A stretch of 64,000 nt of DNA, from NCBI GenBank assembly GCA_037349105.1, contig JAYJMM010000041.1, positions 9,050,501 to 9,114,500 on the forward strand, in the 5' to 3' direction. This stretch comes from Limnomonas spitsbergensis (Eukaryota; Chlorophyta; Chlorophyceae; Chlamydomonadales). Position 1 is the stretch's first letter. The number at the start of each line of letters is the position of its first letter. Below the pieces are notes generated by a model. That model made no database searches, was not told the DNA's origin, and saw only the letters and a program-made list of their open reading frames with translations. Below are positions 42,335-61,147 of this stretch, piece by piece. The position numbers and the translations under genes are program-made.

Positions 42335-43825
42335 CTGAGAATCGCTGAGCGTGGCAGCTTAGTGTTGAGTCCAGGAGAGGCTTGAAGATCTGGCTGTGGA
42401 TTTAAACACCCAGCAGATAATTACCTGTGTGACTGCAGATTGTGATCAGGTGGATCCAATCTTTCATCATTGACAGAAGTGAACTTGTGGATAGAACATC
42501 CAAGTTTGAAATCTTGTGGGTGTACCAAAGGATCCCCGCAGGGACGCAGAGCTGAGCGGACACTACGCAAGAGGCTACATCCACGCAGGGCGTGTGACAT
42601 CCACGCAGGACGTGAGACATCTAGAAGCAGCCCAGCCAGCAAGGTGGGAAGAACTGAAAAGGCGAAGGAGGATTCCGCCAGATTGAAATTAGTGAGCAGA
42701 AAAGCAGGAAGGCAAGGCCTATCCTGCATATTGCTGTACCTGCCATCCGATCTTGGCTCGCAAGCCCTCACCAGATTGCAGTAGGAACAAGGGGGCAGAA
42801 GCCTAAAGTTAGCAGATCCTGTAGGGGGTGTCGCCAGCACGCTTGCAGGACCGTGCGGTTCGTAAATTGCCTGTAGGAATGACAGACGTAGATCTAAATC
42901 CCGATAGGCACCAGCACCCTGACGCCCAACGGAGAAGTGGGCGTCTGAGGGGGCTGGAGCCGGGTGTAAACCCGATGGAAGCTAGTGATGAGCTGGCTGC
43001 AGAAGCCCTGTTGGTGGCGGCGAAGCTGGCAGGGCCAGTGGGACCGCCCGCAGGAGACAGCAAGGTGCCAGAACCGGGCCGCGTACCGCCCAGAGAGGCA
43101 GGGGCGCAGGCAGACGGCTCAGCACTAGTGTCGCACAAAGGGATCAGCCGAGGTGGGCGAGTGCCCCAATCAACCCTGGATATTCCAAGGCAAGGCCTGG
43201 AATATGCGCAGTGGTTGAGACAGGGAGGAAGAACCCCTGAGCTGACATTGGACCCGGCCGTTGAGGTGTCGCAGACCAGTGGCGCAAATCGGGACAGTGG
43301 TCCAGAAGGCGCACCAGAGCAGGACTTGCCCAGTGGGGCAGGGGCCGTGCAACGAGTCAAGAACGAGCCCGATCACGGTGATCAAGGGGCAGGCACCTCG
43401 GCAGCCCCAGAGGGGGCAGCAGAGTGCGGAAGAGCAAGAGACCTAGGCAGTGGGCCAGAATACGCGACGCAGAAGAGGCTAATGAGAGTGGCAAGTGCTG
43501 CGCAGTGCGTTAAAAAGGAGAACGGGGCGATGCCCCGTGGTGGAAGTCAGGTGATCAGGAAACCTGCAGATCTGCAGGCGGTGGGTGGAGCACAAGCCGC
43601 CACTGCGGAATGGCCCCCAGTAAAAAGGAAGGAGGATCTGGCTCAGCCAAGAGGGTGGAACAGGCTAGGGCAGTGGGCCACTGGAGTGTGGAAAACTATG
43701 ATTGGATCCACCTGATCTCAATCTGCAGTCATACAGGAATTATCTGCTGGGTGTATAAATCCACAGCCAGATCCTCAAGCCTCTCCTGGACTCAACACTA
43801 AGTTGCCGCTCTCAGTGATTCTCAG
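42335..43825 (+). mobile_element. Non-autonomous internal segment with 126-bp inverted ends
   Basis: This segment lies between U copies 1 and 2. Its first 127 bp (42335-42461, starting CTGAGAATCGCTGAG) reappear as reverse complement at 43700-43825 (ending CAGTGATTCTCAG). The left end corresponds to the leader that follows U in the large element (44641 onward). Between the arms lies a short frame homologous to the N-terminus of the large polyprotein. The arrangement U-leader-orf-inverted leader-U looks like a deletion/snap-back derivative of the large element. Confidence 0.65.
42879..43715 (+). CDS. Truncated N-terminal domain protein of the DNMT retroelement, 278 aa
   Basis: The ATG at 42879 corresponds to the start of the large polyprotein; both begin MTDVDLNPDRHQHPDAQRRS. 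An in-phase upstream ATG at 42828 exists only in this copy. The first about 90 residues are nearly identical to the large protein, then similarity falls, and it resumes weakly at RGWNRLGQWATGVWK (compare IGWTGILQWATDLWK). The frame ends inside the inverted leader repeat. No zinc knuckle, protease, methyltransferase or integrase is included. It may be a gag-like accessory or interfering product; function unknown. Confidence 0.55.
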   Translation: MTDVDLNPDRHQHPDAQRRSGRLRGLEPGVNPMEASDELAAEALLVAAKLAGPVGPPAGDSKVPEPGRVPPREAGAQADGSALVSHKGISRGGRVPQSTLDIPRQGLEYAQWLRQGGRTPELTLDPAVEVSQTSGANRDSGPEGAPEQDLPSGAGAVQRVKNEPDHGDQGAGTSAAPEGAAECGRARDLGSGPEYATQKRLMRVASAAQCVKKENGAMPRGGSQVIRKPADLQAVGGAQAATAEWPPVKRKEDLAQPRGWNRLGQWATGVWKTMIGST

Positions 43826-43826
43826 G

Positions 43827-44640
43827 TGTCACAGTATATTACAGTATACGTGACAGAACCGTTTAGACCGCAGTTAGCGTCATCGGTGACTCCGCAGCTT
43901 CTCTGCGGAGTCTTCGTATTTGAGCTGAGACCTAGAAACCCGCTTACGCAGGATAAGTTTGACAGGTTCTACCGTACTCTGTATTGGGCCTGCCGGGTCC
44001 CTGTATCCCGGCAATTGCCTTGGCTAGTTACTTCGTCCCTTTCTAAAGGACAGACCTCTATTGTAAACAAGCACCGGCCGTCATCCGTGTATGAGGCCTC
44101 TAACGTTCACATAAGTCAGTACCCTTACTCAAGTCAAGCCTAGACCAGCCCAGCTGAGATAGCTGGAGACTAGTACCACAGCCAGAGAACCGAGACCACC
44201 CTGCCGAAGCCGAAGTACGCAGTCTACGTCCCGTCTCCCTCCCCGCGTGTAGCGCGGTAAGTGCACCTTAACATAGCCCTGCTGGATCGCGCCCAGACGG
44301 CCAGAAGGCCTAAGCTACCTAAGTCAATTGCTATATACACAAATATCCACCTAGCTGCTTAACTCGAAGAGCACTCGCAGCCAGTGAATAGTCACTGAGC
44401 CTGCCCGTAGGCGTCCGTCACTGCCGTGAGGAAAGAAGTCCGCCACGGACCTGAAGCGCACCTCGCGTGTCCTTTAGAAAGGGACGAAGTAGATTTAGCC
44501 TGATCAGCTCAATTTGCCAATTCCTGCTAAAGGTGCTTGTGCAGCGAATTGGAAATTTGTTTGCATACAAACGACCTTGGACAGCATTTGAACTGCACTT
44601 TGCTGTGGTAATCTCCAGAGAGAGATTGCCAAGTTAAACT
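43827..44640 (+). repeat. LTR-like repeat U, copy 2 (probable 5' LTR of the large element)
   Basis: An 814-bp repeat with terminus TGTCACAG. Positions 43827-44467 are identical, base for base as read, to 60277-60917, an offset of 16450. Hairpin GACTCCGCAG-CTTCT-CTGCGGAGTC is at 43888-43912. An internal inverted pair (ACTTCGTCCCTTTCTAAAGG near 44029 and its complement near 44466-44488) brackets the middle of the repeat. The plus-strand 105-aa frame in it is not considered a gene. Confidence 0.75.
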
Positions 44641-45183
44641 CTGAGAATCATTGAGCGTGGCAGCTTGGTGCTGAGTCCAGAAGTGGCTTGAAGATCTGGC
44701 TGTGGATTTATACACCCAGCAGATAATTCCCTGTGTGACTGCGGATTGGGATCAGGTGGATCCAATTTCTCATCATTGACAGAAGTAAACTTGTGGATAG
44801 AACATCCAAGTTTGAAATCTTGTGGGTGTGCCAAAGGATCCCCGCAGGAACGCAGAGCTGAGCGGAAGCTACGCAAAAGGCAACATCCACGCAGGGCGTG
44901 TGACATCCACGTGGACGTGAGACATCTAGAAGCAGCCCGGCCAGCAAGGTGGGCAGAGCTGAAAGGGCGAAGGAGGATTCCGCCAGATTGCAACTAGTGA
45001 GCAGAAAAGCGGAAAGGCGAGGCCTTTCCTGCATAGTGCTGTACCTGCCATCCACTCTTGACTCGCAAAATCCTCACCAGATTGCAGTAGGAACAAGGGG
45101 GCAGAAGCCTAGCGTTAGCAGGTCTTGTAGAGGGTGTCGCCAGCACGTTTGCAGGACCGTGCGGTTCGCTAATTGCCTGTAGA
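44641..45183 (+). other. Leader of the large retroelement
   Basis: 543 bp between repeat U and the start codon of the polyprotein, homologous to 42335-42878 of the upstream derivative. Several short upstream frames start here. No primer-binding site could be assigned with confidence. The first 127 bp are the segment that is inverted at the right end of the derivative. Confidence 0.5.
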
Positions 45184-48100
45184 ATGACAGACGTAGATCT
45201 AAACCCCGATAGGCACCAGCACCCTGACGCCCAACGGAGAAGTGGGCGTCTGAGGGGGCTGGAGCCGGGTGTAAACCTGATGGAGGCTAGCGATGAGCTG
45301 GCTGCAGAAGCATTGTTGGTGGCGGCGAAGCTGGCAGGGCCAGTGGAACCGCCCGCTGGAAACTGCAAAGTGCCAGAGCCGGGCCGCGCACCGCCAAGAG
45401 AGGCAGGGGCGCAGGCAGACGGCTCAGCGCTGGTGACGCGCAAAGGCATCGGCCGAGGGGGTCCAGTGCCCGCCGATTTCAGGGGCAGCCTGGAATTCGA
45501 GCAGTGGCAGACGCAGGCTGGAACACCAGAGCTGATCTTGGATCAAGCAACAGAGGTGTCCCAGAGCTGTGACACGCGGCAGAGCAGCGAGCCCAAGGCT
45601 ACGCCCCAGCAGAATCCGCCCAGGGTGGCCAGGGTTGCGCAACGGATCAGCGAACCCAGTCAGCCGGATCAAAGGGCCGAGGAAGCCGCAGCACCAAGAG
45701 AGGTTGCAGGCTGTGATAAAGCATGCCCAGACAAACAGCGAATGAAAGCAGAGGAAATGGAGGCCAGGAGTATGCCTGCAGGGGTCAAACACGAGGAAGC
45801 TGAGCCCCAGCCAGCAGCGGGCAGGCAGAGCTCGCAAGTCGGCAAGGAAAGGGAAAAGTCAGCTGTGCCGGTAGGAAATCCCTGGGCTGACCAAATATCC
45901 GAGGAAGAACTGTCAGATCCAGTTCAAGAAGAGAAGGGGCAGCAGTCTAAGACAGGACTGCGCCCAAGACAGCAGCTGCGACCGCGCAGGGTGCTGGTCA
46001 GAAGAGGAGCTGGATCCACAGTTTACGGGACGCCGCTGTCCAGGTTTCCGCCCAGTGTGGGCAGACCTGTGCAGAAATCCAAGGAGGGATCTAGCAGCCT
46101 GACACAGAGAGACGACAGCCACAAGGAAATCCGGCGAGGATTTTTTTACGATCCGTCAGGAGCGCAGGATACCAGCCCGAGTGAGCCAGAGCACCCCAGG
46201 GCTGGGGGAGCAGCGTGCGGCGAAAAGGAGTCAGAAGTACAGGTGCAGCCAATCGGTTGGACAGGAATTTTGCAGTGGGCAACGGATCTGTGGAAGCAAG
46301 TGTGCTCCAGGACGTTCCTGCATTTCCAGGACCAGGTCACAGCTATTGAGGAGTTCAAGGCCCATCATCTGCAGGGATGGGCAACAAAGGCCATGCTGGG
46401 TATCCCCCACACAGGGCAGGACAGGGCAACGCTGTTAGCCGCTCTTGGACAGGTGTCCAAGGGAAGGGCGGGACGCGAAGCAGCACTGGCTGTTAAGGCC
46501 TTCGCAGACGAGTGGTGCAATGAGGTAACAGGAAATCAAGTGGAACCTGGATCCGAGCCGGAAGAGGAGGAGGACCAGGCATGGGAAGGATTTGAAACAG
46601 CAGTGCAGCGACCGGAGGAGCTCAGGGAGGTGCAAAGGTGGCAGCAGCAGGCAAGAGCCGCGCCTACCCCGGCACTCAGGTCAGAGGCCTTCGAGGTCAG
46701 CAGCGAGCCAAGCCTTAGGGGGCGACCAAGGGGCAGGGATGCGCCCAGAGCCAGCAGTCCAGCCGCCAGCGAAAGGGCGGAGTTGACTAGCCGATCACTC
46801 GCCAGGATGGCAGAGCAAGGCACAGCAACACGTAGAGCAAGCAGGCAAGAGTCTTATGCGTTGCTACGCATAGTCGAGGACAAAGAGAACACATGCCAGG
46901 AAACCCAGGTGGATTACATCAAGGAATTCCTGAGGAACAGGCAGGCGGGCACGGCAGGTGGAGCCAGGAGAAATGAGCCTGCAGGCAGCGCACGGAGCAG
47001 TGGTCCAAGAATGCAGGAAGCCAGAGAGGAAACGCAGTCGGATTCCTATGCCAGGAATTACACAGGCGGGACGCAGCCAGGTTGGCAGAGCCAGGAGCCG
47101 CCCAGGGGGCAGGCATACAACAGAGAACAGCCAAACCGGCATAGCCAGGAGCAGCCCAGAGGACAGGCAAACGGCAGGGAACACCCAAGCCAGCATAGCC
47201 AGGAACCGCCCAGAGAGCAGGCAGATGGCAGGGAACAGCCAAGCCAGCAAAGCCAGGAGCAACCCAGGGGACCAGCGGAACACAGCAGAGGGGTGAGGCA
47301 TGAGCAAGACCAGGAGCTGCCCAGGGGACAGGCAGAGCCGGGCAGAGCGCAGTCTTGGAGGCCTGGCTCTGACAGCAGACCAGGCAGAGGCGAATCAGAA
47401 CGGCTGCCACCCGAGGGAAGTAGAAGCTCTGCAGGAAGGGCAGGCGGGCAGCCATCGCGAGAAGATCATGATCAGGAGGAGGATTATTACAGACACGACA
47501 GATACCGTTCAGGTCGCAGCCCATCGAGGGGCGGCGGTGGAGGATCTAGGTCACGGTCAGAGTCGGTTGATTCAGGACCAGGAGGAGTGGACAGACGCAG
47601 GCCAGGAGCCAGGCAGGAGTCCAGCGACCAGGAAATGAAGAGGCTCGAGAGGGAACAGGCAAGGGTGAACCTGCAGCTGCAGCAGCAAATGGTCCTGCAG
47701 CTGGCAGGGGTAGCCAAATTCACAAAAATTCCAGCCATCCAGGGCAACGTGCCAGTGTTGGATATGTCGCACCCAGGCGCGGTTGCAGCCAGGAAATATT
47801 GCCAAGCATGTGGATATTGGGGATCGCACAACAGGCTGGCACTGTCAGACGACCCGCCAGCGCTGGCTGTGGTGGCCGGAGAAATAGCTGGGTCGTGCCA
47901 GTCGCCATCAGCCATGACGATGTTGGTGAAATCACTGGTCAAGCTATGGGACAGCAAGCCGGCTAGCGTGGGGCCACTGATGGTAGCCATCAGGGCGGCG
48001 CCCCATGCAGGAGACAGGGCTGCCAGAGAAGCAGAAAGGATAAGGGGGATGTGGGTTGCCCCAGCAGAAGAGCAGTGTTGTGAAGCCTCGCTGCTAACCT

Positions 48101-51100
48101 TGTGGATCAAAGTGGTTCAAGCAGAGGTGGGAAAGCCAACCTCGGATGAGAGGACAGCCATTTCCAACCTCAGGCTAGGGGTGAAGACCACTCTCGACCC
48201 TGACGTCAAGCCAGAGGAGACGGTGGAAGCATTTGCTCACAGAGTGCTGTCGACAGCAGAGTTGCTGCAGATCTCAAGGGATGCAGTGGACCACTTTGGC
48301 AGGAGGCACTCAGTCTCGCATCTGTTCCATGATGGACTTCCAGCGCTCGCTAAGGCCAAACTGAGCAAGTTTGTTATGACCGTCCCAGGGTACCTCAGCA
48401 TGACAGACGAAGATCAGATTGCAGTACTCACACAGCAGGTGGTGCTGTGGGAAAAGTTTGCCCTGGAAATGGGGGACCTAGGAGGCGCAAGCCTCAAACA
48501 GATGGCCAGTGGGCCTAGCCAGGGGGAGGCGCAGTCCAACAGAACACGGAAGGAGAGAACAGGACAATGGGAGATGCGGACACGCCTTGACGGGGCAGGG
48601 AACCCCGCAGGTGCAGCAGCTGCCCAGCAACAGCGGAGTGACAAACCCAGAGGAGTTACCTGGGCAGATCAATCAGGAGCACCAAATTACAGCGCAGAAG
48701 GCGCTGCAGGGGCAGTCAAGGCATGCTACCAGTGTGGTAGCACGGCGCACCTGGCCAGGGATTGCAGGGCGCCCAGACCCAGGGATGAGCGCAGGCCGAC
48801 GCCACTTGCTGCTGACATTACAGCTGGGCAGTCCAGGCCGCAGCAGCAGCAGTACCCGCTCCCACCAAGGCCGCAGCAGAGTCAGCCTGCAGGCAGACCG
48901 TACGAGCGGAATCAGAACAACAGGCAGTACCAACGGCCAGGGCCTGGCCAGGGGGGTCAGGCTCAGCAGGCAGCACACGTGTCTCACCTAAGCAGCCCAA
49001 CGGGGCAAGCCGAGCCAGAGGGCTGGCAACAGACTATGGCAGAGATGCTCAGCGAGTCCGTAGCACTCATGACGCAGGTTGGGCTAGTGCCCAAATCCGC
49101 AGGATTCAAGCAGGCGGCTCACAACGCTCGTCCTAGGTCATTCTTGCCAGAACCCTGTCCAGAGGAGGAACCTGAGCAAAGGCTCGTGGAACCTGCCTCC
49201 AGGAAGGGAGCAAAGAGACTGGTTTTGAGCAAATTAGCTGACGATATGTCTGACATCCGACTGCAGGTGTTCAAGTTGAACGAGAGGCTGACGGCGCTGT
49301 CATTCACCACTATGCCCATGGGTTCAGAAGACCACAGGGGTAAGGCCAGTAAGGGCAGGCAGGAAAGCAGGGTGGTCACAGCTGCACCAAGGCTGCAGTA
49401 TTTTAAGAACGACAGAAGCAACCTGGAGCAATGTGTGGGCCTTATGGTCAAAGGAAAGGTCCTGGTGGCACAGAAGGCCCTCATGGACTCAGCGTGCTCC
49501 TGTCATGTGATCACAGTCAACATTGCAGAACAGTTAGTCGCCATGGGGGCAGAGCTGATCAGGACGGATGAGAAGATCCGCACGACAGACAATGCAGGGG
49601 CAGATCTGTATGGGGTGCTGTTCATTTACGTGGTGTACGGATATGGAGGGCCCAATGCTATTATGGAACCCACGGTGGTCAGGGTCGTAAAAACACCGCC
49701 CGATGCATACGAACACTTGGTGGGGAACCCGGAGTTTCTCAAGTACAATGGGGTTTTAGAGGCAGCAGGAAGGCTGACATTACGCCCCAGAGATGGCCCC
49801 CAGACAGTCCGAAGGGTCAGGGACCTGACGCTGCCGTTGGTCCTAGCATCCCCAGCAGGAGGGTACCAGGCAGCAGCAGTAGCATGGGCAGGAATCCGGT
49901 GTGGATTTGCAGAACGCGAAAGGTGGCCCGCGGCCAGGGTAGAGGAAGAACACGAGCCGCTCTTACAGCACGCCATGGCCACACACGCAGGTGCCGCCAT
50001 GAGGGCTGACCAGAAGGTGGGACAGAGTCGCGGAACAGCCGCAGGTGCAGGCAGAAGCACCGCAGATGCGAGCAGGAGCAGCCGTGAGGATCCGCAGGAG
50101 ACTGTGTCCAGGCCGCGCCAGTGCGGGCAAACGCAGGCTGCAGGGCCCAGGGAGGGCAAGGTGAATGCCAAGGCCGCTGCGTCACTGCCGGGCCAGGCAG
50201 CAGCACAGGCAGTGGCCGCTGCTGAGTTAGCAATGGCACGCAAGGCAGAGTCAAGGCCGGAATACGAAAAGGAGGTCATTCGGAGATGTGTGGAGGCAAG
50301 CCTGCGCTACCCATGCGTCTTGTGCGGAGAACCTGGCCAGCACTCTACAGAGAAGTGTGAGCAGAGGATCCAGGAGATACTGCAGAGGCCTGAGGCAGGC
50401 CCCGCAGCCCAAGGAACATCGCCAGGGGCCAAAGGGCGAGTAGGCTTTGGAGGAGCCGCAGCAGCAAGAGCTGCGTCAGCAGGACCCAGCAGGCACTCGG
50501 AGGTGCAGGTGCCTGGCAAAGGCGAGAGGGCCGGTGCGGCTGATGGGGGCGTTATGGACGTCGCCCCGGCAGCAGCAGAAGGGAAGCAAGGGATCACAGC
50601 AAACCGTGAACAGGAGGAGCCTGTCGGCAGAGATGAGGGGGAAGTATCAGAGGAATCAGAGGAGGAAGAAGTCCAGGATCGAAGGACCCCGAAGTACATG
50701 CAGGTGCTGAGGCTGCAGCAACAAGTAGAGTTACTGCAGCACGACGTCAAGGCAAGGGAAGAGCTGCTGTACCGCCAGGCGGCTGCAACAATTGAATACC
50801 TGAGGTTGCAGCAGGTCAGGTGGACAGGCCTCCATGACACCAATATACGGCTCACGGAGGTACAACGGCAATACATCTTGCGTGCAGACCAGCTGCGAGC
50901 GCTGTACGACAACCTGGGGAGCCAGCAGACCGGAGAGCAGCTGCAGGCCGCCATCCCAGGTGACCCGGCGCTGGCAGAGCATATGGCAGCCATGTTTCAA
51001 TCCGCAAAGGAGTTAGCGGAGGAGGACGAGAACCTGAGCCAGGAGAAGCTGCAGGACCAGGAGCAGCAAGCCACTGGTCAGCAAGAACCAGGGGGCAGTG

Positions 51101-54100
51101 GCGGGGCCAGGCAGGCCAGCGGGGAAACGCGAGTGCGGCACAGGGGAGCAACCCCAGATGACGCCGGGCATACAGTAGCCAGGGAGCGCAGCAGGAGCGC
51201 GCAGAGGGCTCGAAGCGCAGAACGCCGCGGGGCGGTGCCTACACCAGAGGCGCGAACCCAGCGGCCAGACCGCGATGATAGCTTCGACAGGCCCAGCAGC
51301 AGGAGGCAGCAGTCACCCAGCGGGAATCGTGGGAGCCAGCCCAGGGGCAGGTCGCAAGAGCGAGGCACGGGTAGCCACGCCAGGCCATACCAGCTTGAAC
51401 AGAGAATGCAGGATAGAGGGGGAACCTCCAACCAGAGCCCGCCGGGCAGGGCCCAGGCAGGACGCAGCGTGATGGGGGGACAAAGGAATGTCCTCGGACC
51501 CCGCGACGGGGGGGTGTGCTTCAACTGTCAAAAGCCAGGGCACTTCGCTAGCGCGTGCCCAGAGCAGGGAGAGGCCTCGCAGCCTGGCGACAGCAGCCGG
51601 TTTGACCGGTCACGGGCAGCAGGAGGCCCGGAAAGGGGCTGGGGAGTCAGAGGACCAGGCAGGAGCCAGGAGGCGTCAGAAGATAGCATGAGGCGAGCTT
51701 ACGAGGCCGCCACAGGGGTCTCCTTTGAAGAGTGGAAAAGGCAGCAGGAGACAGCTGGACCGAGTGAGCTGCCAGGCCCGCCAGGACGGCCGGGCCCAGC
51801 GGGGCAGTCTTACAACTCCAGGTGGGTCAGCCAGGAGAGGCACACGTGCATGATGTCGGTCCATGAAGGGTTGGGGCAGAACGCAGCAGCTCGGGGTGTG
51901 AGCTACCAGGCCGCAGCAATGCCGGTAACATTCCAGGTGGTGCCAGAGGGGCAGGTGGCCCAGCAAAGGCACCACTGGCAGATGGTGGTAGAGGCCCTAG
52001 CCATGAATCACTATGGTACACGACCTGCAGGATCAGCCAGGTCTATGGCACATGCCGTGGAGTTTCTCAGGAACCTCCAGCAAAGGGGATGCCCGGCCCC
52101 ATGTGAGGGATGGCCTGGCATTCTCCAGCAGTTTCTCGACAAAGAATGGGACATCTACAATGCCCAGATGGATGAGTTTGAGAGGATAGAGCAAGAGGCA
52201 GGACCCCAGCACAGGGCAGACGGGTGGGAAACCAGTTCCAGTGAGGCCGGCACCAGCGACTCAGAGGAAGGCCATGAGCCTCAAGCACCTGTGGCAGTAC
52301 ATGAGGAAGAAGCTGCCATGCCCTGCCCAGGTACCCCGGAGGGCAACGCGGACACAGGCGTCGGGGTAGCGGTAGCAGCCGCCGGGACCCGGAATGGGCT
52401 CAGCAGGCAGGATCACCACCCAGGGGCCAAGGGGGCGGCAGCTATGAGTTCAGAGGACACTACGGTGGGGGCCGTTAGGACCCATCACAGTACAACCTCG
52501 CGGTCCAGCGCAGCCAGATGGGAGGAAGAGGACAGAGGGCTGCAGAGCAGCCGCAGCAGGGGCGAGAGGCCCGCTGCAGGGAATGAGGATTCCCAGTTCA
52601 CCCAGGCCGGTACAGGGCACCGGGGCCGGTCGGGCAGCAGAGGGCGGGCTCGCCCTGCGCCAGACCTGCCGAGATTGCCAGAGAGCAGGTGCTTCGTACA
52701 ATGGTACCGCCTGGGGGAAGAAATGCCAGAGGCATCGTCTTCAGAAGCTATGATCACTCTGCCAGCGCAGTCCAAGGATGGGCTGTGTAGGTTGCAGAAC
52801 CATAGGCTCCTGGAGGACAGGTCACACACGTGCGTCAACATAGCGGCAGCCATGCAGGCAGTGGCCAGACTGATCTTTCCATGGGACGCGGTGACAGCAG
52901 TCCTGCTGGGTGCAGCACTCAAGGGGTTCATCCAGCCCAGCACAAGGATGGAGGTTTATATGCAGAGGGGATGGTCACAGCACCCCATCTACGCATACTG
53001 CGTCAGCGAAATGGTGGAGCTAGCCGTCAAAGAAGGCATCACAGCAGTAGCCGCAGCCGACAGGGCGCACCCAGACGTGCCGGATAGCGCGCGCACCGAG
53101 GGGGCGTGGCAGGGTGCACAGCCCGGGTTCATGCGCACGCCATGGGCAGAAAACTGCGTCCACCAGTTGATGGAGCAGCCCGCCCTCAGAGACCGCGCCT
53201 TCTATGTGCCAGTGCAGGCCTTAAGAGAGCACGGATGGGGCGACAGGCCTGAGGATGGAGCCCACAGCGGGGCAGGGCTGTGCCATGCCGATCGGCCACG
53301 GCGGTGTGAGGCTACAGTTGAGGCATCGGTCACCATCCCCAGGATGGTCGCAGGGCAAGCTGTACCATGGGGAATGGACCCTGGGGAGGCCAGGGCGGCC
53401 ATCCCAGTTCAGCAGCTGGTAACTTACTACTACGAGGAGCTGGAAGAGGGAGAGATGCCTGCGTCAGCAGCATGGATCCACATGCATGCGTCGAGGGACG
53501 ATATGCCAGTCTTCCTGTTCGCCAGGTGCGAAGGGAACGTGGCGATCACCAGGTGTGCATCAGTCGACGAGGCAGAATTTCACGCGCACACGCACGCCAG
53601 GGGAGCAGACCCAGCAACATGGGCAGTCATGCTCATGGCGTTGCAACGGGTCCTGCTCCCAGGACAGCTGTCAGCAGCCATGCGGCACGTCTGGGGCGTG
53701 GATGATCAGTGGGCGCCGCTGGAAATGACAGACTGCCCCACATGGCCATACGGGGCCCAGAGGTCGCCAGCGGATGGACCCATGTGGGAAGACGAGGAGG
53801 AGTTCGCGCGCTCGCCGTTCGCAGTGGAACGGTTAGAAGCGTGCGTGCACCAGTGGGTACGCTGGGAGAGGAAAGCGTGGCACGACAACAGAGCCAGCAG
53901 CGTGGGCCCGTATTGGCAGGCAAACGGCATGACAGTACAGCTGTGGAGGCAGGCGCACCCGGCAGGGGTGCGCACTCTGCACCCCCTGTTCAGAGGAGCA
54001 GGGGCGGATACCTACATGGAGGAGCTGGAGGAGCTGAGGACTCAGCCCGTACCGGGGCGCTGGATGGTGGGCAGATGGGGTTCCCACCATTGGGACCCCG

Positions 54101-57100
54101 CTTCCATCACTGACGGGCCAATCCAGGACACATACCAGGAGCCAACAGAGCAGGGCCATGTCGCCTTCGTCACCACTCTCGGGGCAACAGCATCCTCTTG
54201 GGAGGGGCTGGAACCCATGGAGGACATGGAGGTGTCAGCCCTGGAGGCTGCAACCGGGGATTGGGCGGAGACCCAGACGGTCCCGGACATTGCCAGCCAT
54301 GAGGACGGAGGGCTGCTGGAAGAGAAGAATGAAGACCCTTCAGAAGGGCCACCATCACTGGTGCAGGATTCAGAATCGGAGGATGAGTGGGGCGCTGACA
54401 GAAGCCCGTGCCCAGCAAGGATCAGCCTCACAAGAGCTGATACCGGGGATGCAGATGGGATGGAAGAGCCAGCCAGCGCAGGCCCTGGACCAGGGAGTCC
54501 GGTGTGGGGCCGCGTGGAGGACTTGGTACAACTACGCCAGGAATGGATGCGCGAGGTTGCTCAGGAGCAAGCAGCCATGGAAGAGCGCAGAACCAGGAGA
54601 GCCGAGATAGAACGCAGCAGCAAGGCCGCGCTAGAGGAGACGGCACACAAGGTCACAGCAGGGGTGAGCCCGCAGCAGGCAGCAGACCAGTACGCTGGCG
54701 AGCCCAAGGGGGCAGCAGCAGGCCAGGCGAACAGCAGGAGCCCAGGGGACGTACAGATCAGCCCGCCAGCACAGGCAGCAGCGAGGGAGCCTTGGGGCGA
54801 CCCAGCAGCATACAGCGCGGAACGCTGGGTGGCAGTGCTCAGACACTTCGTGGATGAGCTAGACGTGCTAAGAAGGCAGGAGATGGGGCAGCAAGAGGCA
54901 AGCCAGGAGGCTAGCCTAGTTTTCCGGCTCAGAATGCTGCCACAGCCCGACCCGAACCCCAGGATGGGAGGTTACAGCAGGGCGGTCAGGGAGCTACAGG
55001 AGGAGCTGACAGAGAGAATATCAGCCCTCAACAGGATGGGGGCAAAAGGAGGGGACACCCAACAGCCGTCGGAAAGCCGCAGCAGCCAGGCGAGCACCAG
55101 CAGGGGGGAGGCCCTTGCAAGGATGGCTGCCGGCGCTCGGGCAAACTCGCGACAGGGCTGTGGGCCTGAGGAGCCCGCGGATGACGGCAGCAACACTGTG
55201 CAGCGCGCCATTCACAGGCAGGAGCGGACGGCACATGGCAGCACAGGTCAGATACCAAGAGCAGGGCCAGAAAGGGCTGGTGCGGCTTGGGCTGATGCTG
55301 CCGAGTTGCGGGGGAAAAAGTCCAAAAAGGCTAGGCGGCGCGCGGGAAAGGCGCAGAGGGCAGCCGAGGACAGGAACCGTGGCAGCAGACCAGGAAGGGA
55401 CTGCCCAGTCCTGCCACTCAGGATCAGCCAAGTGGATCTGGAGATCACATGGGCCATTGGACAGCAGAGGCCGGCGCAGAGCGCAGAGCCAGGCGCACAG
55501 CCCGCAGAACACCTACCGCAGAAACCCGCGAGGCAGATACCAGCTTGCAGAGGACTTCTCACCTGTACAGCATTCAAGGGGATCCTTACGGGGGCGCTCC
55601 AGCTGATACTGGTGTGGCTCCTGCTGTCGGTGTGTGTGCCAGGGGCGCGAGCCACCGGGCAGGGCGTGCGAGGAGGAGGATTTACGGCAGGCCAAGGGGC
55701 TTTTGTGTCTGGACAAGAGGCAGCAGCAAAGCTGTCGTCTGGATGGTTGCGCCCACCAGCAGTCATTCCCATGGGGAGTGCCAGCCGGAGGGGTGCCTGC
55801 AGCCAGCAGGAGAGCTGGCAAAGTGGCAACGACACTGGCAGGGAAGAGCCGCCCGCGGAGGACGACCCGCAGGCGGCTGAGATGATCGACATGTTCCAGC
55901 CGGGAGGAGTCGTGGAGCCGCCCGCGGAGTACGTCAAAACCAAGGAGGGGTGGTTGCTGGGCCAGCACCCCGACTTCACTGCGGCACAGCAGGAGAGCCT
56001 GGAGCAAAGCCTCAGGGATCGCCAAGGAGCGTTCGCTTACTCCATGGAGGATCTGCCTGGCTACTGCGGCACGCAGGGCCTGGACACAGCTTGTCTGTCG
56101 GGTGGGGCAGTGCGGGCCATGGAGACCAAGGGAGTCGTCCTTTTCGAGCCCTTTGGAGGTATGTGTTCAGGGTTGGAGATGGTGCTCAGGGCGGGTATCC
56201 CAGTGGTTCAGTACCTGTATGCGGATATCAGTGAGGAAGTCAGAGAGATCGCAGGGGGGCGCCTGGTGCAGTTGCACAGGAGATACCCCCAGTTGTTTCC
56301 GGTCAAAGCGTTTGATAAGGCGTTCAGAGCGTTGCCCCAGGATGTGTATGCCATTACGGCAAAGCACCTCCAGGAGGCGGGCGCCCAGGAGGGGCGTCAG
56401 TGGTTCATGGTAGCAGGCTGGGAGTGCCAGGACCTGTCATCAGCAGGCAAGGGGCGTGGGCTCGAGGGAGAGAGAAGCAAGTCTTTCTTCCCGTTAGTCA
56501 AGCTGTTGGGTACACTACAGTTCCTGCAGGGGCCTAGGCCGCCAGCGTACCTGATTGAGAATGTGGCAATGCAGTTGAATCAGAAGAGTGTGAAGGCCAG
56601 TGTTGAGGCTTTTCAGGAGGTGTGCCGGATTCTGGGAACACCGGCGCTGTTTGACGCAGCGCAGGTGGGATCTTACGCCCACCGCACCCGCAACTATTGG
56701 GGGAATATTGCCCCAGCAGCAGATATTGAATTTGTGATTCGTGCGTCGACCAGACCCCACGGGGGGATTGTAGACGACATTCTGGACAAGGGCAGCAAGG
56801 CCCAAGTAGTATCATGTCCGGACAATGGGGGGTACCGCATCAATGTAACTGGGCAGCCCAGGAAAGTGCTGCCGTGTTTGATGGCCACGCCCTCATCATA
56901 TGCTTCCAGGAACGGGCAAAATGGGATGGTGTACAGGCCCATGGGGGACTTGCAGGAGCCCAATGCAAACGAGCGTGAGCGCGCCATGGGGTACGCTGTA
57001 GGATCCACATTGCCGCGCCCGGACTTCCCAGAGGCAGCCAGAAGGGCAGCCTTGGGTAGGGGCATGGATTCATGGGCACTAAGTGCGTGGCTCAGTGTGG

Positions 57101-59235
57101 CACTCGAGTGTGCTAAGATCATTCCAGCAGAATTGACACGCAGGGCAAAGCTGCCAGGCCGGGACAGGGACCCAGCTCTGGGGGCGACTTTAATGTCCAG
57201 CCACTTTGCCCTCGCTACTGCAGGAAACGCATGCTCCGGCAGCGGAGAAGCGGCCGCGTCATACAGACAGTGCCTGGGGGAATCAGCCGCGGCAGACTGG
57301 GCCGACGCGGCACAGGAGCCAGGTGGGAATGCGTCTGCAGAACAAGTTGATGTTGGAATCAAAGTACCCAGGGAAGCAGAGAGTGAGAAGGACCAGCCAG
57401 GTTGTCCTGCAGGACCGTCGGCTAGGGTCGATGTGTGGGCAGATGAGCCCGTCTTGAGGTTTCTCCGTGAAAAGACTTATGTCCAGGGAACAGAGCTAGG
57501 AGAACAGACTAGAATACAGCGCAGAGCAGCGCCATTCCAGTGGGAATCAGAGAGGGGAGGAGTCCTGATGAGACTCATGCCTGACGGTAGACGTTGTGTG
57601 GTGCCCAGGCCAGAAGACAGGCTAGCAGTGATCCAGACAGCGCATGCAGGTACGGGCCATTTTGGCAGCCACCGCACGGCTTTCATGGTCATGCAGCAGC
57701 ATTGGTGGCGGGGACTTCGAGCAGCAGTCAAGAAGGCGGTGCAGGAATGCGGTGTGTGTGACAGGGCCAGGGCGTCCACGTTCAATCACATACAGCCCAA
57801 CCTGCACCCGCTACCCATTGAAGGGTTGTTTTTCCGGTGGGGAGTGGACCTGTGTGGTCCATTCACGACCACGTCCAGGGGAAATCGGTTCGTGATGGTG
57901 TGTGTGGAGCATTACTCAAAATGGGTGGAGTTAATCCCCATTCCAAGCAAGGCGTCTGATGTGACGGCCTTGGCGTTCTTTCAAAATGTTGTTGCACGAT
58001 TCGGGGGATGCGCAGAGGTGGTGACAGACCAGGGAACAGAGTTCCAGGGTGAATTTCAGGACATGTTGTTGGACTGCTTCATTGACCATCGCACCACTTC
58101 TGCCAACCACCCCCAGGCAGACGGGCTTTCAGAAAGGGCTGTCCAGACCCTCAAGGCAGGCCTGCGCAAGTGCTGCGAGGAGGGCAGCAGCGACGAGTCC
58201 TGGGACAAGATGGTGCCCTGGGTAGCCCTAGGCTTCCGATGCTCGCCGCAGCAGGCCACGCGCATGGCGCCGTACGAGGTGCTGTTCGGACAGAGACCCA
58301 CCTTCCCCTCCAGAGTGGGGGCGGACCTCTGGAGCACAGCCAAGGTGGCAACGGCAGAGGAGGCAGCAGACCTGCTCTTGGCCAGAGTGGCCAGGATCAA
58401 AGAGGCACTGCCAGTCGCGGGTGAGCATCTAAAAATTGCGCAGCACCGCGACAAGCTGCGATATGCACGCATCCGTGGGGGAGGGTATGTCCCCCAGGTC
58501 AGGCGTTTTGCAGAGGGAGATTACGTGTATGTGAAGTATTCATCAGAGCGACGCAGCCTCGATCCCAAGGCCAGGCCTGAGATCCTCAGGGTCAAAACAC
58601 TGGGGGCAACGGGAACTTTGGTGTTGGAAGGGGCAGATGGCCTCACAGTTACAGAGAATGCAGTCAATTGTTCTCCATGCCACTTGCCCAACCTCAGGGG
58701 AGTGGTTGATTTCAGTGGAACCAGACCCAATAACAGCCTGTCATGCGAGGTGTGCCAGCTGCCCGATCGCGGAGAGGTGATGCTTTTGTGTGATGCCTGC
58801 AATACAGGTTGGCACATGGACTGCTTGGTACCAGTCCTCGAGGAGGTGCCTGAGGGCGAGTGGTTGTGCCCACACTGCACGCCGGACGACAAGGGAGCTG
58901 GGCCCGCTGCTGTAGCAGGGCCCGCCACAGAAGAGCGCAGTTTACAGGTCCAGGGGCGACCAAGCCCAGCAGCCAGAGCGGCTGCCAGGACAGCCCAGGA
59001 GGCCGATGTCTTGGACAGGCCTGAGGTAGAAGTCATGGCCACCAACCCAGCAACAAGGCAAATGGAGCGGGGCATCGCAAGACCAATGGCGAACGGGTTG
59101 TATGACATCTCGTACACCACTGGCCGGGGAGAGGCCAATGTCACCCCGAGAGCAGTTGCAAGAAGGGCCAAGGTGGCCAAAGAAGCAGCAAGGGAGGAGG
59201 AAGAGTCAGCCTTTGAGGATCTTACCGGGACCTGA
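45184..59235 (+). CDS. Giant Gag-protease-cytosine methyltransferase-integrase-PHD polyprotein (4683 aa), no RT
   Basis: One uninterrupted 4683-codon frame. Order: disordered charged N-terminus with Gln/Pro/Arg repeats (about 640-760); capsid-like helices (about 850-1120); CCHC knuckle CYQCGSTAHLARDC (1181-1194); aspartic-protease motif MDSACSC (Asp1435); second knuckle (1711-1725); coiled coil (about 1840-1930); third knuckle CFNCQKPGHFASAC (2112-2125); about 1300 residues of unrecognised sequence; a hydrophobic segment (about 3457-3490); the Ty3-type pre-RT linker ending AYSMEDLPGYCG (to 3629). Then comes a cytosine-C5 methyltransferase (about 3645-3985): FEPFGGMCSG, GWECQDLS (Cys3748), IENV (3792-3794), HRTRNYWGN, GRGMDSWAL. 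The integrase follows: zinc-binding HHCC, then Asp4222, Asp4282 and Glu4317. Last are an SH3-like tail and a C4HC3 PHD finger (4521-4565). No YxDD or RNase H motif is found. It would assemble particles, methylate DNA and integrate, but needs RT in trans (inference). Confidence 0.9.
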   Translation: MTDVDLNPDRHQHPDAQRRSGRLRGLEPGVNLMEASDELAAEALLVAAKLAGPVEPPAGNCKVPEPGRAPPREAGAQADGSALVTRKGIGRGGPVPADFRGSLEFEQWQTQAGTPELILDQATEVSQSCDTRQSSEPKATPQQNPPRVARVAQRISEPSQPDQRAEEAAAPREVAGCDKACPDKQRMKAEEMEARSMPAGVKHEEAEPQPAAGRQSSQVGKEREKSAVPVGNPWADQISEEELSDPVQEEKGQQSKTGLRPRQQLRPRRVLVRRGAGSTVYGTPLSRFPPSVGRPVQKSKEGSSSLTQRDDSHKEIRRGFFYDPSGAQDTSPSEPEHPRAGGAACGEKESEVQVQPIGWTGILQWATDLWKQVCSRTFLHFQDQVTAIEEFKAHHLQGWATKAMLGIPHTGQDRATLLAALGQVSKGRAGREAALAVKAFADEWCNEVTGNQVEPGSEPEEEEDQAWEGFETAVQRPEELREVQRWQQQARAAPTPALRSEAFEVSSEPSLRGRPRGRDAPRASSPAASERAELTSRSLARMAEQGTATRRASRQESYALLRIVEDKENTCQETQVDYIKEFLRNRQAGTAGGARRNEPAGSARSSGPRMQEAREETQSDSYARNYTGGTQPGWQSQEPPRGQAYNREQPNRHSQEQPRGQANGREHPSQHSQEPPREQADGREQPSQQSQEQPRGPAEHSRGVRHEQDQELPRGQAEPGRAQSWRPGSDSRPGRGESERLPPEGSRSSAGRAGGQPSREDHDQEEDYYRHDRYRSGRSPSRGGGGGSRSRSESVDSGPGGVDRRRPGARQESSDQEMKRLEREQARVNLQLQQQMVLQLAGVAKFTKIPAIQGNVPVLDMSHPGAVAARKYCQACGYWGSHNRLALSDDPPALAVVAGEIAGSCQSPSAMTMLVKSLVKLWDSKPASVGPLMVAIRAAPHAGDRAAREAERIRGMWVAPAEEQCCEASLLTLWIKVVQAEVGKPTSDERTAISNLRLGVKTTLDPDVKPEETVEAFAHRVLSTAELLQISRDAVDHFGRRHSVSHLFHDGLPALAKAKLSKFVMTVPGYLSMTDEDQIAVLTQQVVLWEKFALEMGDLGGASLKQMASGPSQGEAQSNRTRKERTGQWEMRTRLDGAGNPAGAAAAQQQRSDKPRGVTWADQSGAPNYSAEGAAGAVKACYQCGSTAHLARDCRAPRPRDERRPTPLAADITAGQSRPQQQQYPLPPRPQQSQPAGRPYERNQNNRQYQRPGPGQGGQAQQAAHVSHLSSPTGQAEPEGWQQTMAEMLSESVALMTQVGLVPKSAGFKQAAHNARPRSFLPEPCPEEEPEQRLVEPASRKGAKRLVLSKLADDMSDIRLQVFKLNERLTALSFTTMPMGSEDHRGKASKGRQESRVVTAAPRLQYFKNDRSNLEQCVGLMVKGKVLVAQKALMDSACSCHVITVNIAEQLVAMGAELIRTDEKIRTTDNAGADLYGVLFIYVVYGYGGPNAIMEPTVVRVVKTPPDAYEHLVGNPEFLKYNGVLEAAGRLTLRPRDGPQTVRRVRDLTLPLVLASPAGGYQAAAVAWAGIRCGFAERERWPAARVEEEHEPLLQHAMATHAGAAMRADQKVGQSRGTAAGAGRSTADASRSSREDPQETVSRPRQCGQTQAAGPREGKVNAKAAASLPGQAAAQAVAAAELAMARKAESRPEYEKEVIRRCVEASLRYPCVLCGEPGQHSTEKCEQRIQEILQRPEAGPAAQGTSPGAKGRVGFGGAAAARAASAGPSRHSEVQVPGKGERAGAADGGVMDVAPAAAEGKQGITANREQEEPVGRDEGEVSEESEEEEVQDRRTPKYMQVLRLQQQVELLQHDVKAREELLYRQAAATIEYLRLQQVRWTGLHDTNIRLTEVQRQYILRADQLRALYDNLGSQQTGEQLQAAIPGDPALAEHMAAMFQSAKELAEEDENLSQEKLQDQEQQATGQQEPGGSGGARQASGETRVRHRGATPDDAGHTVARERSRSAQRARSAERRGAVPTPEARTQRPDRDDSFDRPSSRRQQSPSGNRGSQPRGRSQERGTGSHARPYQLEQRMQDRGGTSNQSPPGRAQAGRSVMGGQRNVLGPRDGGVCFNCQKPGHFASACPEQGEASQPGDSSRFDRSRAAGGPERGWGVRGPGRSQEASEDSMRRAYEAATGVSFEEWKRQQETAGPSELPGPPGRPGPAGQSYNSRWVSQERHTCMMSVHEGLGQNAAARGVSYQAAAMPVTFQVVPEGQVAQQRHHWQMVVEALAMNHYGTRPAGSARSMAHAVEFLRNLQQRGCPAPCEGWPGILQQFLDKEWDIYNAQMDEFERIEQEAGPQHRADGWETSSSEAGTSDSEEGHEPQAPVAVHEEEAAMPCPGTPEGNADTGVGVAVAAAGTRNGLSRQDHHPGAKGAAAMSSEDTTVGAVRTHHSTTSRSSAARWEEEDRGLQSSRSRGERPAAGNEDSQFTQAGTGHRGRSGSRGRARPAPDLPRLPESRCFVQWYRLGEEMPEASSSEAMITLPAQSKDGLCRLQNHRLLEDRSHTCVNIAAAMQAVARLIFPWDAVTAVLLGAALKGFIQPSTRMEVYMQRGWSQHPIYAYCVSEMVELAVKEGITAVAAADRAHPDVPDSARTEGAWQGAQPGFMRTPWAENCVHQLMEQPALRDRAFYVPVQALREHGWGDRPEDGAHSGAGLCHADRPRRCEATVEASVTIPRMVAGQAVPWGMDPGEARAAIPVQQLVTYYYEELEEGEMPASAAWIHMHASRDDMPVFLFARCEGNVAITRCASVDEAEFHAHTHARGADPATWAVMLMALQRVLLPGQLSAAMRHVWGVDDQWAPLEMTDCPTWPYGAQRSPADGPMWEDEEEFARSPFAVERLEACVHQWVRWERKAWHDNRASSVGPYWQANGMTVQLWRQAHPAGVRTLHPLFRGAGADTYMEELEELRTQPVPGRWMVGRWGSHHWDPASITDGPIQDTYQEPTEQGHVAFVTTLGATASSWEGLEPMEDMEVSALEAATGDWAETQTVPDIASHEDGGLLEEKNEDPSEGPPSLVQDSESEDEWGADRSPCPARISLTRADTGDADGMEEPASAGPGPGSPVWGRVEDLVQLRQEWMREVAQEQAAMEERRTRRAEIERSSKAALEETAHKVTAGVSPQQAADQYAGEPKGAAAGQANSRSPGDVQISPPAQAAAREPWGDPAAYSAERWVAVLRHFVDELDVLRRQEMGQQEASQEASLVFRLRMLPQPDPNPRMGGYSRAVRELQEELTERISALNRMGAKGGDTQQPSESRSSQASTSRGEALARMAAGARANSRQGCGPEEPADDGSNTVQRAIHRQERTAHGSTGQIPRAGPERAGAAWADAAELRGKKSKKARRRAGKAQRAAEDRNRGSRPGRDCPVLPLRISQVDLEITWAIGQQRPAQSAEPGAQPAEHLPQKPARQIPACRGLLTCTAFKGILTGALQLILVWLLLSVCVPGARATGQGVRGGGFTAGQGAFVSGQEAAAKLSSGWLRPPAVIPMGSASRRGACSQQESWQSGNDTGREEPPAEDDPQAAEMIDMFQPGGVVEPPAEYVKTKEGWLLGQHPDFTAAQQESLEQSLRDRQGAFAYSMEDLPGYCGTQGLDTACLSGGAVRAMETKGVVLFEPFGGMCSGLEMVLRAGIPVVQYLYADISEEVREIAGGRLVQLHRRYPQLFPVKAFDKAFRALPQDVYAITAKHLQEAGAQEGRQWFMVAGWECQDLSSAGKGRGLEGERSKSFFPLVKLLGTLQFLQGPRPPAYLIENVAMQLNQKSVKASVEAFQEVCRILGTPALFDAAQVGSYAHRTRNYWGNIAPAADIEFVIRASTRPHGGIVDDILDKGSKAQVVSCPDNGGYRINVTGQPRKVLPCLMATPSSYASRNGQNGMVYRPMGDLQEPNANERERAMGYAVGSTLPRPDFPEAARRAALGRGMDSWALSAWLSVALECAKIIPAELTRRAKLPGRDRDPALGATLMSSHFALATAGNACSGSGEAAASYRQCLGESAAADWADAAQEPGGNASAEQVDVGIKVPREAESEKDQPGCPAGPSARVDVWADEPVLRFLREKTYVQGTELGEQTRIQRRAAPFQWESERGGVLMRLMPDGRRCVVPRPEDRLAVIQTAHAGTGHFGSHRTAFMVMQQHWWRGLRAAVKKAVQECGVCDRARASTFNHIQPNLHPLPIEGLFFRWGVDLCGPFTTTSRGNRFVMVCVEHYSKWVELIPIPSKASDVTALAFFQNVVARFGGCAEVVTDQGTEFQGEFQDMLLDCFIDHRTTSANHPQADGLSERAVQTLKAGLRKCCEEGSSDESWDKMVPWVALGFRCSPQQATRMAPYEVLFGQRPTFPSRVGADLWSTAKVATAEEAADLLLARVARIKEALPVAGEHLKIAQHRDKLRYARIRGGGYVPQVRRFAEGDYVYVKYSSERRSLDPKARPEILRVKTLGATGTLVLEGADGLTVTENAVNCSPCHLPNLRGVVDFSGTRPNNSLSCEVCQLPDRGEVMLLCDACNTGWHMDCLVPVLEEVPEGEWLCPHCTPDDKGAGPAAVAGPATEERSLQVQGRPSPAARAAARTAQEADVLDRPEVEVMATNPATRQMERGIARPMANGLYDISYTTGRGEANVTPRAVARRAKVAKEAAREEEESAFEDLTGT
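56127..57140 (+). other. DNMT3-like cytosine-C5 methyltransferase domain within the polyprotein
   Basis: Residues about 3649-3985. Motif I FEPFGGMCSGLEM binds SAM; ADISEEVREIA is motif II; GWECQDLSSAGKGRGL is motif IV with the catalytic Cys; LIENVAM is motif VI; HRTRNYWGNI is motif VIII; ERERAMGY and GRGMDSWALSAWL match the C-terminal motifs. The HRxRxxWGN and GRxxxxW signatures are closer to DNMT3/DRM-type enzymes than to DNMT1. The Pro before the catalytic Cys, almost invariant in the superfamily, is Glu here. All motifs are in natural order with little room for a target-recognition domain. Confidence 0.85.
57640..58430 (+). other. Ty3-type integrase domain within the polyprotein
   Basis: The zinc-binding module runs TAHAGTGHFGSHRTAF to CGVCDRARA. 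The catalytic core has GVDLCGPF (Asp4222), VTDQGTEF (Asp4282) and ADGLSERAVQTLK (Glu4317), giving 34 residues between the second Asp and Glu, one fewer than usual. It is followed by the conserved PYEVLFGQRP segment. All catalytic residues are intact. It would insert element cDNA into the genome. Confidence 0.9.
58744..58878 (+). other. PHD finger at integrase C-terminus
   Basis: CEVCQLPDRGEVMLLCDACN, then GWHMDCLVP, then GEWLCPHC: a full C4HC3 PHD set with the Trp before the last Cys pair. PHD fingers often bind the histone H3 tail. Here it occupies the place where many Ty3/gypsy integrases carry a chromodomain, so a chromatin-targeting role is inferred. Confidence 0.85.
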
Positions 59236-60041: not shown

Positions 60042-60274
60042 GCGAGTAAAGTGGTAGGGGCGGTACCCACGAGACGGAGACTTCTATGCAGAGACATCCA
60101 GTTAGGACCTTCCAGTTACAGTTATCTAGTTGACACACTCTTGTCTGAAGTACAAGGAGCATGAGTGTACGGTGATGTACCGTGTTTGTGAGTAGAGGAC
60201 ACCTCTCTAAGGTGTCCTGACCGGAGTTTACGGTATTTACCATAGTATTGCAGTTACTGCTTTATGGTGCGACA
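60042..60274 (+). repeat. 233-bp direct repeat R, copy 1
   Basis: Starts GCGAGTAAAGTGGTAGGGGC and ends TTTATGGTGCGACA. Identical to 60915-61147 as read. It sits directly after the purine-rich tract and two bases before U copy 3. Confidence 0.8.
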
Positions 60275-60276
60275 GC

Positions 60277-60917
60277 TGTCACAGTATATTACAGTATACG
60301 TGACAGAACCGTTTAGACCGCAGTTAGCGTCATCGGTGACTCCGCAGCTTCTCTGCGGAGTCTTCGTATTTGAGCTGAGACCTAGAAACCCGCTTACGCA
60401 GGATAAGTTTGACAGGTTCTACCGTACTCTGTATTGGGCCTGCCGGGTCCCTGTATCCCGGCAATTGCCTTGGCTAGTTACTTCGTCCCTTTCTAAAGGA
60501 CAGACCTCTATTGTAAACAAGCACCGGCCGTCATCCGTGTATGAGGCCTCTAACGTTCACATAAGTCAGTACCCTTACTCAAGTCAAGCCTAGACCAGCC
60601 CAGCTGAGATAGCTGGAGACTAGTACCACAGCCAGAGAACCGAGACCACCCTGCCGAAGCCGAAGTACGCAGTCTACGTCCCGTCTCCCTCCCCGCGTGT
60701 AGCGCGGTAAGTGCACCTTAACATAGCCCTGCTGGATCGCGCCCAGACGGCCAGAAGGCCTAAGCTACCTAAGTCAATTGCTATATACACAAATATCCAC
60801 CTAGCTGCTTAACTCGAAGAGCACTCGCAGCCAGTGAATAGTCACTGAGCCTGCCCGTAGGCGTCCGTCACTGCCGTGAGGAAAGAAGTCCGCCACGGAC
60901 CTGAAGCGCACCTCGCG
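60277..60917 (+). repeat. LTR-like repeat U, copy 3 (truncated to 641 bp; probable 3' LTR)
   Basis: Identical to 43827-44467, the only two copies of the four that match perfectly. It breaks off at CCTCGCG and runs into repeat R with a 3-bp overlap (GCG). The segment 60277-61147 as a whole begins TGTCAC and ends GCGACA, an LTR-like inverted terminus, so R could be the natural end of the LTR. Confidence 0.75.
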
Positions 60918-61147
60918 AGTAAAGTGGTAGGGGCGGTACCCACGAGACGGAGACTTCTATGCAGAGACATCCAGTTAGGACCTTCCAGTTACAGTTATCT
61001 AGTTGACACACTCTTGTCTGAAGTACAAGGAGCATGAGTGTACGGTGATGTACCGTGTTTGTGAGTAGAGGACACCTCTCTAAGGTGTCCTGACCGGAGT
61101 TTACGGTATTTACCATAGTATTGCAGTTACTGCTTTATGGTGCGACA
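60915..61147 (+). repeat. 233-bp direct repeat R, copy 2
   Basis: Second copy of R, between truncated U copy 3 and the inverted U copy 4. Both R copies end in GCGACA next to a U sequence, but in opposite U orientations. Confidence 0.8.

Follow-up and report, generated by a model that had tools for sequence, protein, structure and literature searches.

In Klebsormidium nitens, the KnitGypsy-Dnmt3 elements carry a Dnmt3-class DNA methyltransferase (DNMT) within the Pol frame of a Gypsy retrotransposon, and the DNMT is under purifying selection (de Mendoza et al. 2018, PMC5890265). In the sections of that paper considered here, the repeats are given a DIRS structure combined with Gypsy domains, and the DNMTs are termed intron-less (PMC5890265). 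Splicing has been described for other retrotransposons. According to the excerpts of the literature used here, Drosophila copia and barley BARE1 encode a single Gag-Pol frame, from which splicing yields a Gag-only RNA; each has one intron, that of copia covering 2950 nt and nearly all of pol, and that of BARE1 104 nt (PMC3735527). CRR of rice, a Gypsy element, splices out rt (PMC3735527), and in Ogre of legumes, also a Gypsy element, the intron lies between two frames and its removal joins them (PMC3735527, PMC6317226). For CRR and Ogre, the same excerpts describe neither a DNMT nor multiple introns for individual domains (PMC3735527, PMC6317226), and splicing terms are absent from a paper on centromeric elements (PMC3059260).

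The element analysed here lies in a 64,000-nucleotide stretch of Limnomonas spitsbergensis DNA; "the window" denotes this whole stretch. Like KnitGypsy-Dnmt3, the window element has a Dnmt3-class DNMT in its Pol frame and repeats in the order A-coding-B-A-B. A sister copy, L009, has the KnitGypsy-Dnmt3-type layout, with reverse transcriptase (RT) and RNase H (RH) before the integrase (IN), whereas the window copy is without RT. With the copia, BARE and CRR type it shares a single Gag-Pol frame and, as judged from DNA, an rt-removing intron with splice consensus. It differs from KnitGypsy-Dnmt3, to which it is likened by description and for which the sections considered mention neither spliced nor RT-less copies, in that the RT, DNMT and integrase stretches appear to be separately excised. 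It differs from copia and BARE1 in that four putative introns lie over the enzyme regions, are lost in many combinations and are known from DNA copies, integration of the spliced forms being frequent.

Results

Organization of the window copy

The element spans window positions 43827-61147 and has the ends TGTC...GACA. Its parts are as follows.

43823..43826, no strand: target-site duplication CAGG, left, matching CAGG at 61148-61151
43827..44467, + strand: terminal repeat A1, beginning TGTCAC, 99.845% identical to A2 over 645 bp
45184..59235, + strand: single open frame Gag-(PR)-linker-DNMT-IN-PHD (open reading frame and Pfam)
49483..49509, + strand: protease-like motif MDSACSCHV (by eye)
56035..56070, + strand: pre-RT linker AYSMEDLPGYCG (motif; RT-RNase H comes next in 17 of 20 sister stretches)
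56119..57220, + strand: DNMT3-like cytosine methyltransferase domain (Pfam, sequence alignment and predicted fold)
58744..58878, + strand: PHD finger (Pfam)
60042..60274, + strand: repeat B1, ending GCGACA, 100% identical to B2
60277..60917, + strand: repeat A2, two bases (GC) past B1 (identity to A1)
60915..61147, + strand: repeat B2 and element end (identity to B1)
61148..61151, no strand: target-site duplication CAGG, right, matching the left CAGG

The frame runs through 4683 codons with zero stops. Pfam places two stretches of CCHC zinc knuckles in it (best at residues 2111-2127), followed by DNA_methylase at residues 3741-3838 (E 4e-5), Integrase_H2C2 at 4144-4197, rve at 4219-4310 and PHD at 4521-4565, while the linker AYSMEDLPGYCG begins at residue 3618. 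RVT and RNase H families are absent from the window frame at E<=1. A preliminary description of this DNA had placed knuckles, linker, DNMT and integrase, and no RT or RNase H, in one frame of this length, with which the Pfam matches and the linker motif agree. It had also listed a protease motif; the DSACS motif (residue 1434) is a reading by eye, and Pfam gives no match to a retroviral-type protease in the frame.

The two copies of terminal repeat A are 99.845% identical over 645 bp, with approximately one difference, and the two copies of repeat B are 100% identical over 233 bp. From these near-identical repeats, the window insertion looks very young. The open frame of this copy therefore says little on maintenance, and the earlier reading of an uninterrupted frame as a maintained design is not supported. 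The repeat order A-coding-B-A-B of the window copy is DIRS-like despite the rve integrase and the 4-bp target duplication; the meeting point of B1 and A2, GACA-GC-TGTC, resembles a circle junction. A diverged 5' part of the same element, approximately 90% identical, lies upstream of the copy (window 41525-43166), and an inverted, likewise diverged piece of repeat A lies directly downstream (window 61148-61954).

The observed/expected CpG ratio is 0.56 in the coding part (45184-59235) and 0.61-0.62 in two other parts of the window, and the terminal repeats A and B, at 0.92 and 0.81, show milder depletion than the coding part. Between the window copy and L028, transitions are approximately 3.5 times more frequent at CpG than at other sites, a ratio inflated by counting CpG in either copy. 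Elsewhere, the window holds a long C-rich array with a period of 42, approximately 109 copies and strong GC skew (20351-24927) and a second array with a 93-bp unit (32339-33759). Pfam found no family in four other open reading frames of the window, and Rfam gave no match over the window.

The methyltransferase and its relatives

The window DNMT matches DNMT3A in sequence (E 2e-8). Its structure, predicted by AlphaFold2 with a pLDDT of 89.9, has DNMT3A as its top PDB match (E 1.9e-18, TM 0.64/0.80), and the window methyltransferase is thus DNMT3-like by both sequence and predicted fold. Across a 22-row alignment of relatives, the catalytic motif keeps an invariant Cys-Gln, which lies in WECQ at the place of SPCN in DNMT3A. 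No relative of the element DNMT was found in one scan of viral contigs.

Among the relatives obtained by protein search, some, such as P0012 and P0015, have RT, DNMT and IN together, and P0005 has the order of the present family as judged by motif order. In P0023, the DNMT lies between the protease and the RT part, and P0031 (Closterium) reads CCHC-protease-DNMT, with the RT family absent from the 1062-aa model. The named green-algal protein matches are from Haematococcus, Cymbomonas and Closterium. The same genome holds other DNMT-like genes, L001 (C30:291933-295874) and L003. L001 has the top PF00145 score, is open in one piece and adjoins a frame that resembles, by eye, the tail-fibre chaperone type; an origin by insertion of giant-virus DNA is speculative.

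The RT-RNase H stretch in sister copies

The genome searched comprises 260 Mb in 124 contigs and contains many sister copies. Twenty 9.9-kb stretches around the best of these were compared with the window, and 17 of them carry an RT-RNase H stretch between linker and DNMT, 1731 bp long in 16 sisters and 1729 bp in one (L016). Like the window, the other three (L010, L015 and L028) are without it. The extra stretch of L009, the one scanned, matches RVT_1 (E 6e-23) and RT_RNaseH (E 1e-30), and the order in L009 is linker, RVT_1 and RNase H, then DNMT and IN. In all of the 17 copies but L016, thus in 16, the stretch has a length divisible by three and contains no stop. L009 and the window share 99.9% identity across the 5.2 kb compared, and an unspliced copy, C27, has a stop-to-stop frame of 5291 aa. 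By these alignments, the order of the family is linker-RT-RH-DNMT-IN-PHD. The position of the missing stretch, hereafter intron A, is as follows.

56077..56078, + strand: junction A, site of the lost 1731-bp RT-RNase H intron, GTGAGT...TGCAG (sister comparison)

Unspliced copies read CACGCAGG/GTGAGT...TGCAG/GCCTGG at this position (slashes mark the intron borders), and the window reads CACGCAGG followed by GCCTGG, with the flanks joined to the base. We infer splicing at A because a stretch with the spliceosomal signature GTGAGT...CAG is precisely absent. A group II intron with its own RT was considered and rejected, as RNase H follows the RT and the ends are GTGAGT...CAG. Group II introns carry an RT of the group II type and have the ends GTGYG...AY.

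Searching with up to two mismatches gave 71 pattern matches to the RT-less junction (1 with a reversed-pattern control), and the RT-bearing junction has 338 pattern matches (control 0). The RT-less junction is genuine at 50 of the 52 places examined among the 71 matches, so it is no deletion unique to this copy. The same junction A also occurs in L073 and L074, which belong to a subfamily approximately 22% diverged in the left flank. Copies with and without RT between linker and integrase thus exist side by side in this genome. The preliminary description had proposed that a DNMT was swapped for RT, which does not hold, since RT-RH sits exactly between window positions 56077 and 56078 in 17 of the 20 sisters.

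Three further putative introns in the Pol region

Comparing copies with the window revealed three further recurrent losses, each of the form GT...AG. The lost stretches were located in the window by copy comparison.

56159..57223, + strand: intron B, 1065 bp, in frame, GAG/GTATGT...CTGCAG/G, covering the DNMT after motif I
57323..58116, + strand: intron C, 794 bp, frame-shifting, CAG/GTGGGA...CCCCAG/G, covering the zinc domain of the integrase and the bulk of its core
58421..58807, + strand: intron D, 387 bp, in frame, CGG/GTGAGC...TACAG/G, covering the integrase C-terminal part and half of the PHD

Junction B has 53 spliced and 385 retained pattern matches (controls 0), the spliced junction C 65 (control 0) and the spliced junction D 60 (control 1); matches for B, C and D were inspected within the fetched stretches. 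The fit between introns and domains is close and imperfect: motif I of the DNMT is left in the exon by B, and C stops short of the end of the integrase core. Junction placement is ambiguous by only 2, 3, 5 and 3 bases for A-D, respectively.

Stretches A, B and D are coding introns whose lengths keep the frame and which contain no stop, as judged in the window for B and D. The usual intron C (794 bp) is not a multiple of three. A second acceptor lies 4 bases downstream, CAG/GCAG/ (window 58110-58121), and its use gives an intron of 798 bp that is in frame. Its use resembles that of tandem splice acceptors and is rarer, with 6 matches at up to one mismatch (control 0) as against 65 for the usual acceptor. 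L043, one of the six, stays open, and L031 and L048, which have lost the usual C and D, meet a stop 116 codons past junction C. Exitrons, which are coding introns inside exons, have been described for host genes. Introns A, B and D are like them in being in frame and stop-free, whereas C is so only via the rarer acceptor, the usual C being frame-shifting.

Splice-site strength and combinations of losses

Splice sites in L009 (9.9 kb) were scored against a generic consensus, with weights chosen in knowledge of the sites. On this scale, the donor of A is the best among the 496 GTs of L009, that of D is in the top 3, and those of B and C are in the top 18. Among the 1033 AGs, the acceptor of B is the best, those of A and C rank within the top 5, and that of D within the top 80.

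Comparison of 66 stretches with L009 yielded 114 deletions at least 30 bp long, of which 112 matched one of the four stretches: 48 matched A, 25 B, 23 C and 16 D. A is over-represented in these counts, as 46 of the 66 stretches were picked by junction A or a near match, and B-D are unselected. The two unassigned deletions are one in L033, which is A with its edge shifted by a flanking deletion, and one in L020, which lies beyond the coding part.

Junction matches were grouped by position into 138 clusters, leaving out two false A matches. Junctions within a cluster are spaced by 81, 96 and 308 bases with the intervening introns gone, plus 1065 or 794 if B or C is kept, exactly as predicted by whole introns kept or removed. 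By junction pattern, the clusters represent 14 of the 15 combinations, namely A, B, C, D, AB, AC (2), AD (1), BC, CD, ABC, ABD (2), ACD (1), BCD and ABCD, a tally in which clusters with a single junction cannot prove that the remaining introns are kept. B and D alone together have no case among the 138 clusters. Sequence comparison directly gives A alone (window), D alone (L011), C and D (L014), loss of A, B and C with D kept (for example, L035 and L037) and loss of all four (for example, L031 and L048); by position, C65 has lost B and kept A. In L048, where all four are lost, the segment L077 matches window 45894-55794 colinearly at 98.9% identity with no gap. As read from this one fully spliced copy, splicing takes Pol and leaves Gag.

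Spread of RT-less copies and selection on the enzymes

A tree was built from 43 copies (24 RT-less and 19 RT-bearing) with the RT insert left out; 16 of the 19 RT-bearing copies came from the 40 nearest the window and three from the junction list, and 20 of the 24 RT-less copies were picked by junction. The state of A requires at least five changes on this tree, four of them forced by well-supported branches. The RT-less label is clustered, since shuffling gives 14.3 changes and none of the 500 shuffles goes down to 5; many RT-less copies therefore have an event in common. Under the assumption of no regain, 12 losses of RT are needed on the tree as resolved, and no fewer than 8 with weak branches collapsed. 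Spliced and unspliced copies can be identical elsewhere: over 1170 columns, no difference separates the spliced window copy and L010 from the unspliced L009, and none separates the spliced L015 from the unspliced L016. Recombination between co-packaged RNAs could inflate the number of loss events.

The 4-bp target duplications are CAGG for the window and TAAG for L010, both RT-less, and AGAA for the RT-bearing L009. Because the window copy and L010 both are without RT and have different target duplications, they were inserted separately and must have taken RT from another source. A clade of seven RT-less copies carrying the DNMT (L059, L060, L061, L062, L067, L069 and L070) has a mutual identity of 98.0-99.7%, which points to the multiplication of one RT-less form; all seven are free of stops over the 1.2 kb read. 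The earlier proposal that the element borrows RT thus keeps its core, in that RT-less DNMT copies do move with RT from other copies, and loses the swap on which it was built.

Values of pN/pS are 0.077 for RT-RH (16 distinct sequences), 0.085 for DNMT (17) and 0.011 for IN (15), and 0.21 for a non-enzyme stretch (18). As judged by these ratios, the RT, DNMT and integrase stretches are under purifying selection, the low pN/pS indicating that the introns code for selected proteins.

Discussion

Splicing at A-D followed by re-integration is, in our judgment, a highly probable explanation of the RT-less copies, and excision of A-D from RNA by the spliceosome is very likely. The full element would be a Gypsy-type single frame of Gag-(PR)-linker-RT-RNase H-DNMT3-integrase-PHD, with its Pol enzymes inside four spliceosomal introns that are optionally kept: A with RT-RH, B with the DNMT, C with the integrase zinc domain and core, and D with the integrase tail and half of the PHD. 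Unspliced RNA would give the whole polyprotein, and spliced RNAs would yield Gag with some or all of the enzymes left out, the usual removal of C breaking the frame and bringing translation to an early end. Spliced RNAs with intact ends could be packaged, copied by the RT of full-length copies and integrated; it follows that RT acted in trans on RT-less forms. The window copy would then be a young RT-less retro-copy spliced at A alone.

What the splicing is for is a separate matter. Overproduction of Gag, known from copia and BARE1 (PMC3735527), fits the pattern because the copy with all introns spliced keeps the equivalent of window 45894-55794 free of gaps, and we lean slightly towards splicing as a means of setting the Gag:Pol ratio. 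A broader proposal, to which we give an even chance, is that Pol is a row of removable enzyme introns giving up to 16 RNA forms, by which the output of RT, methyltransferase and integrase would be set and from which RT-less, methyltransferase-bearing lineages would be shed, living on the RT of full copies. The main competitor of these functional proposals, which shares the splicing step and denies it a purpose, is cryptic splicing that leaves dead-end processed copies. In its favour, kept forms outnumber lost ones (338 versus 71 pattern matches for A and 385 versus 53 for B), and the usual C breaks the frame. However, the donor and acceptor of A and the acceptor of B are best or near-best in 9.9 kb, and the four introns tile nearly all of Pol with none in the equivalent of window 45894-55794 of one fully spliced copy. 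In addition, A is in frame and stop-free in 16 of 17 copies, B and D likewise in the window, and junction A is common to the L073/L074 subfamily, approximately 22% diverged in the left flank. We therefore regard purposeless splicing as a serious contender that falls somewhat short of an even chance.

Explanations that dispense with splicing fare far worse. Reverse transcriptases do produce deletions of the template-switch type, and the 2-5 ambiguous bases per junction would suit template switching during reverse transcription or deletion between short direct repeats. Yet dozens of copies share identical ends with at least 4-5 changes on the tree, GT-AG borders all four stretches, and only 2 of the 114 deletions fall outside A-D, one of them being a shifted A; moreover, a nearby GCAGG repeat at A would give a junction one base shorter than that observed. 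Such deletion is thus very improbable. A designed RT-less element with a DNMT truly in place of RT is more improbable still: the linker does lead directly to the DNMT in 24 of the 43 tree copies, picked by junction, and the seven-copy RT-less DNMT clade is 98.0-99.7% identical and open over the 1.2 kb read, but RT occupies the exact site in 17 of 20 sisters, L009 among them at 99.9% identity to the window over 5.2 kb, and RT-less copies take several positions on the tree. Some RT-less lineages may nevertheless be established parasites. Long repeats are prone to collapse in assembly; nevertheless, 50 of the 52 places examined show this junction to be genuine, and two RT-less copies of nearly identical sequence differ in their flanks and target duplications, which leaves an assembly error in the window copy a negligible chance. 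Against splicing itself, B and D alone together are unseen, the acceptor of D does not stand out (80 of the 1033 AGs reach its score), and the donors of B and C are good only (18 of 496). Splicing followed by re-integration is nonetheless the reading we retain.

No DNMT retrotransposon with domain introns was found in the open-access literature searched. Within that literature, what is new here is that the enzymes are covered by four separate introns, that these are lost in varied combinations and that integrated copies record the losses. In the cases cited, splicing for more Gag in single-frame retrotransposons uses one intron per element. Here, each Pol enzyme region would act as its own removable intron, and the DNA copies let the splicing choices be counted. 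RT-less, methyltransferase-carrying elements would arise repeatedly from the full element and spread on borrowed RT, and this spread bears on the question of why retrotransposons carry DNMTs.
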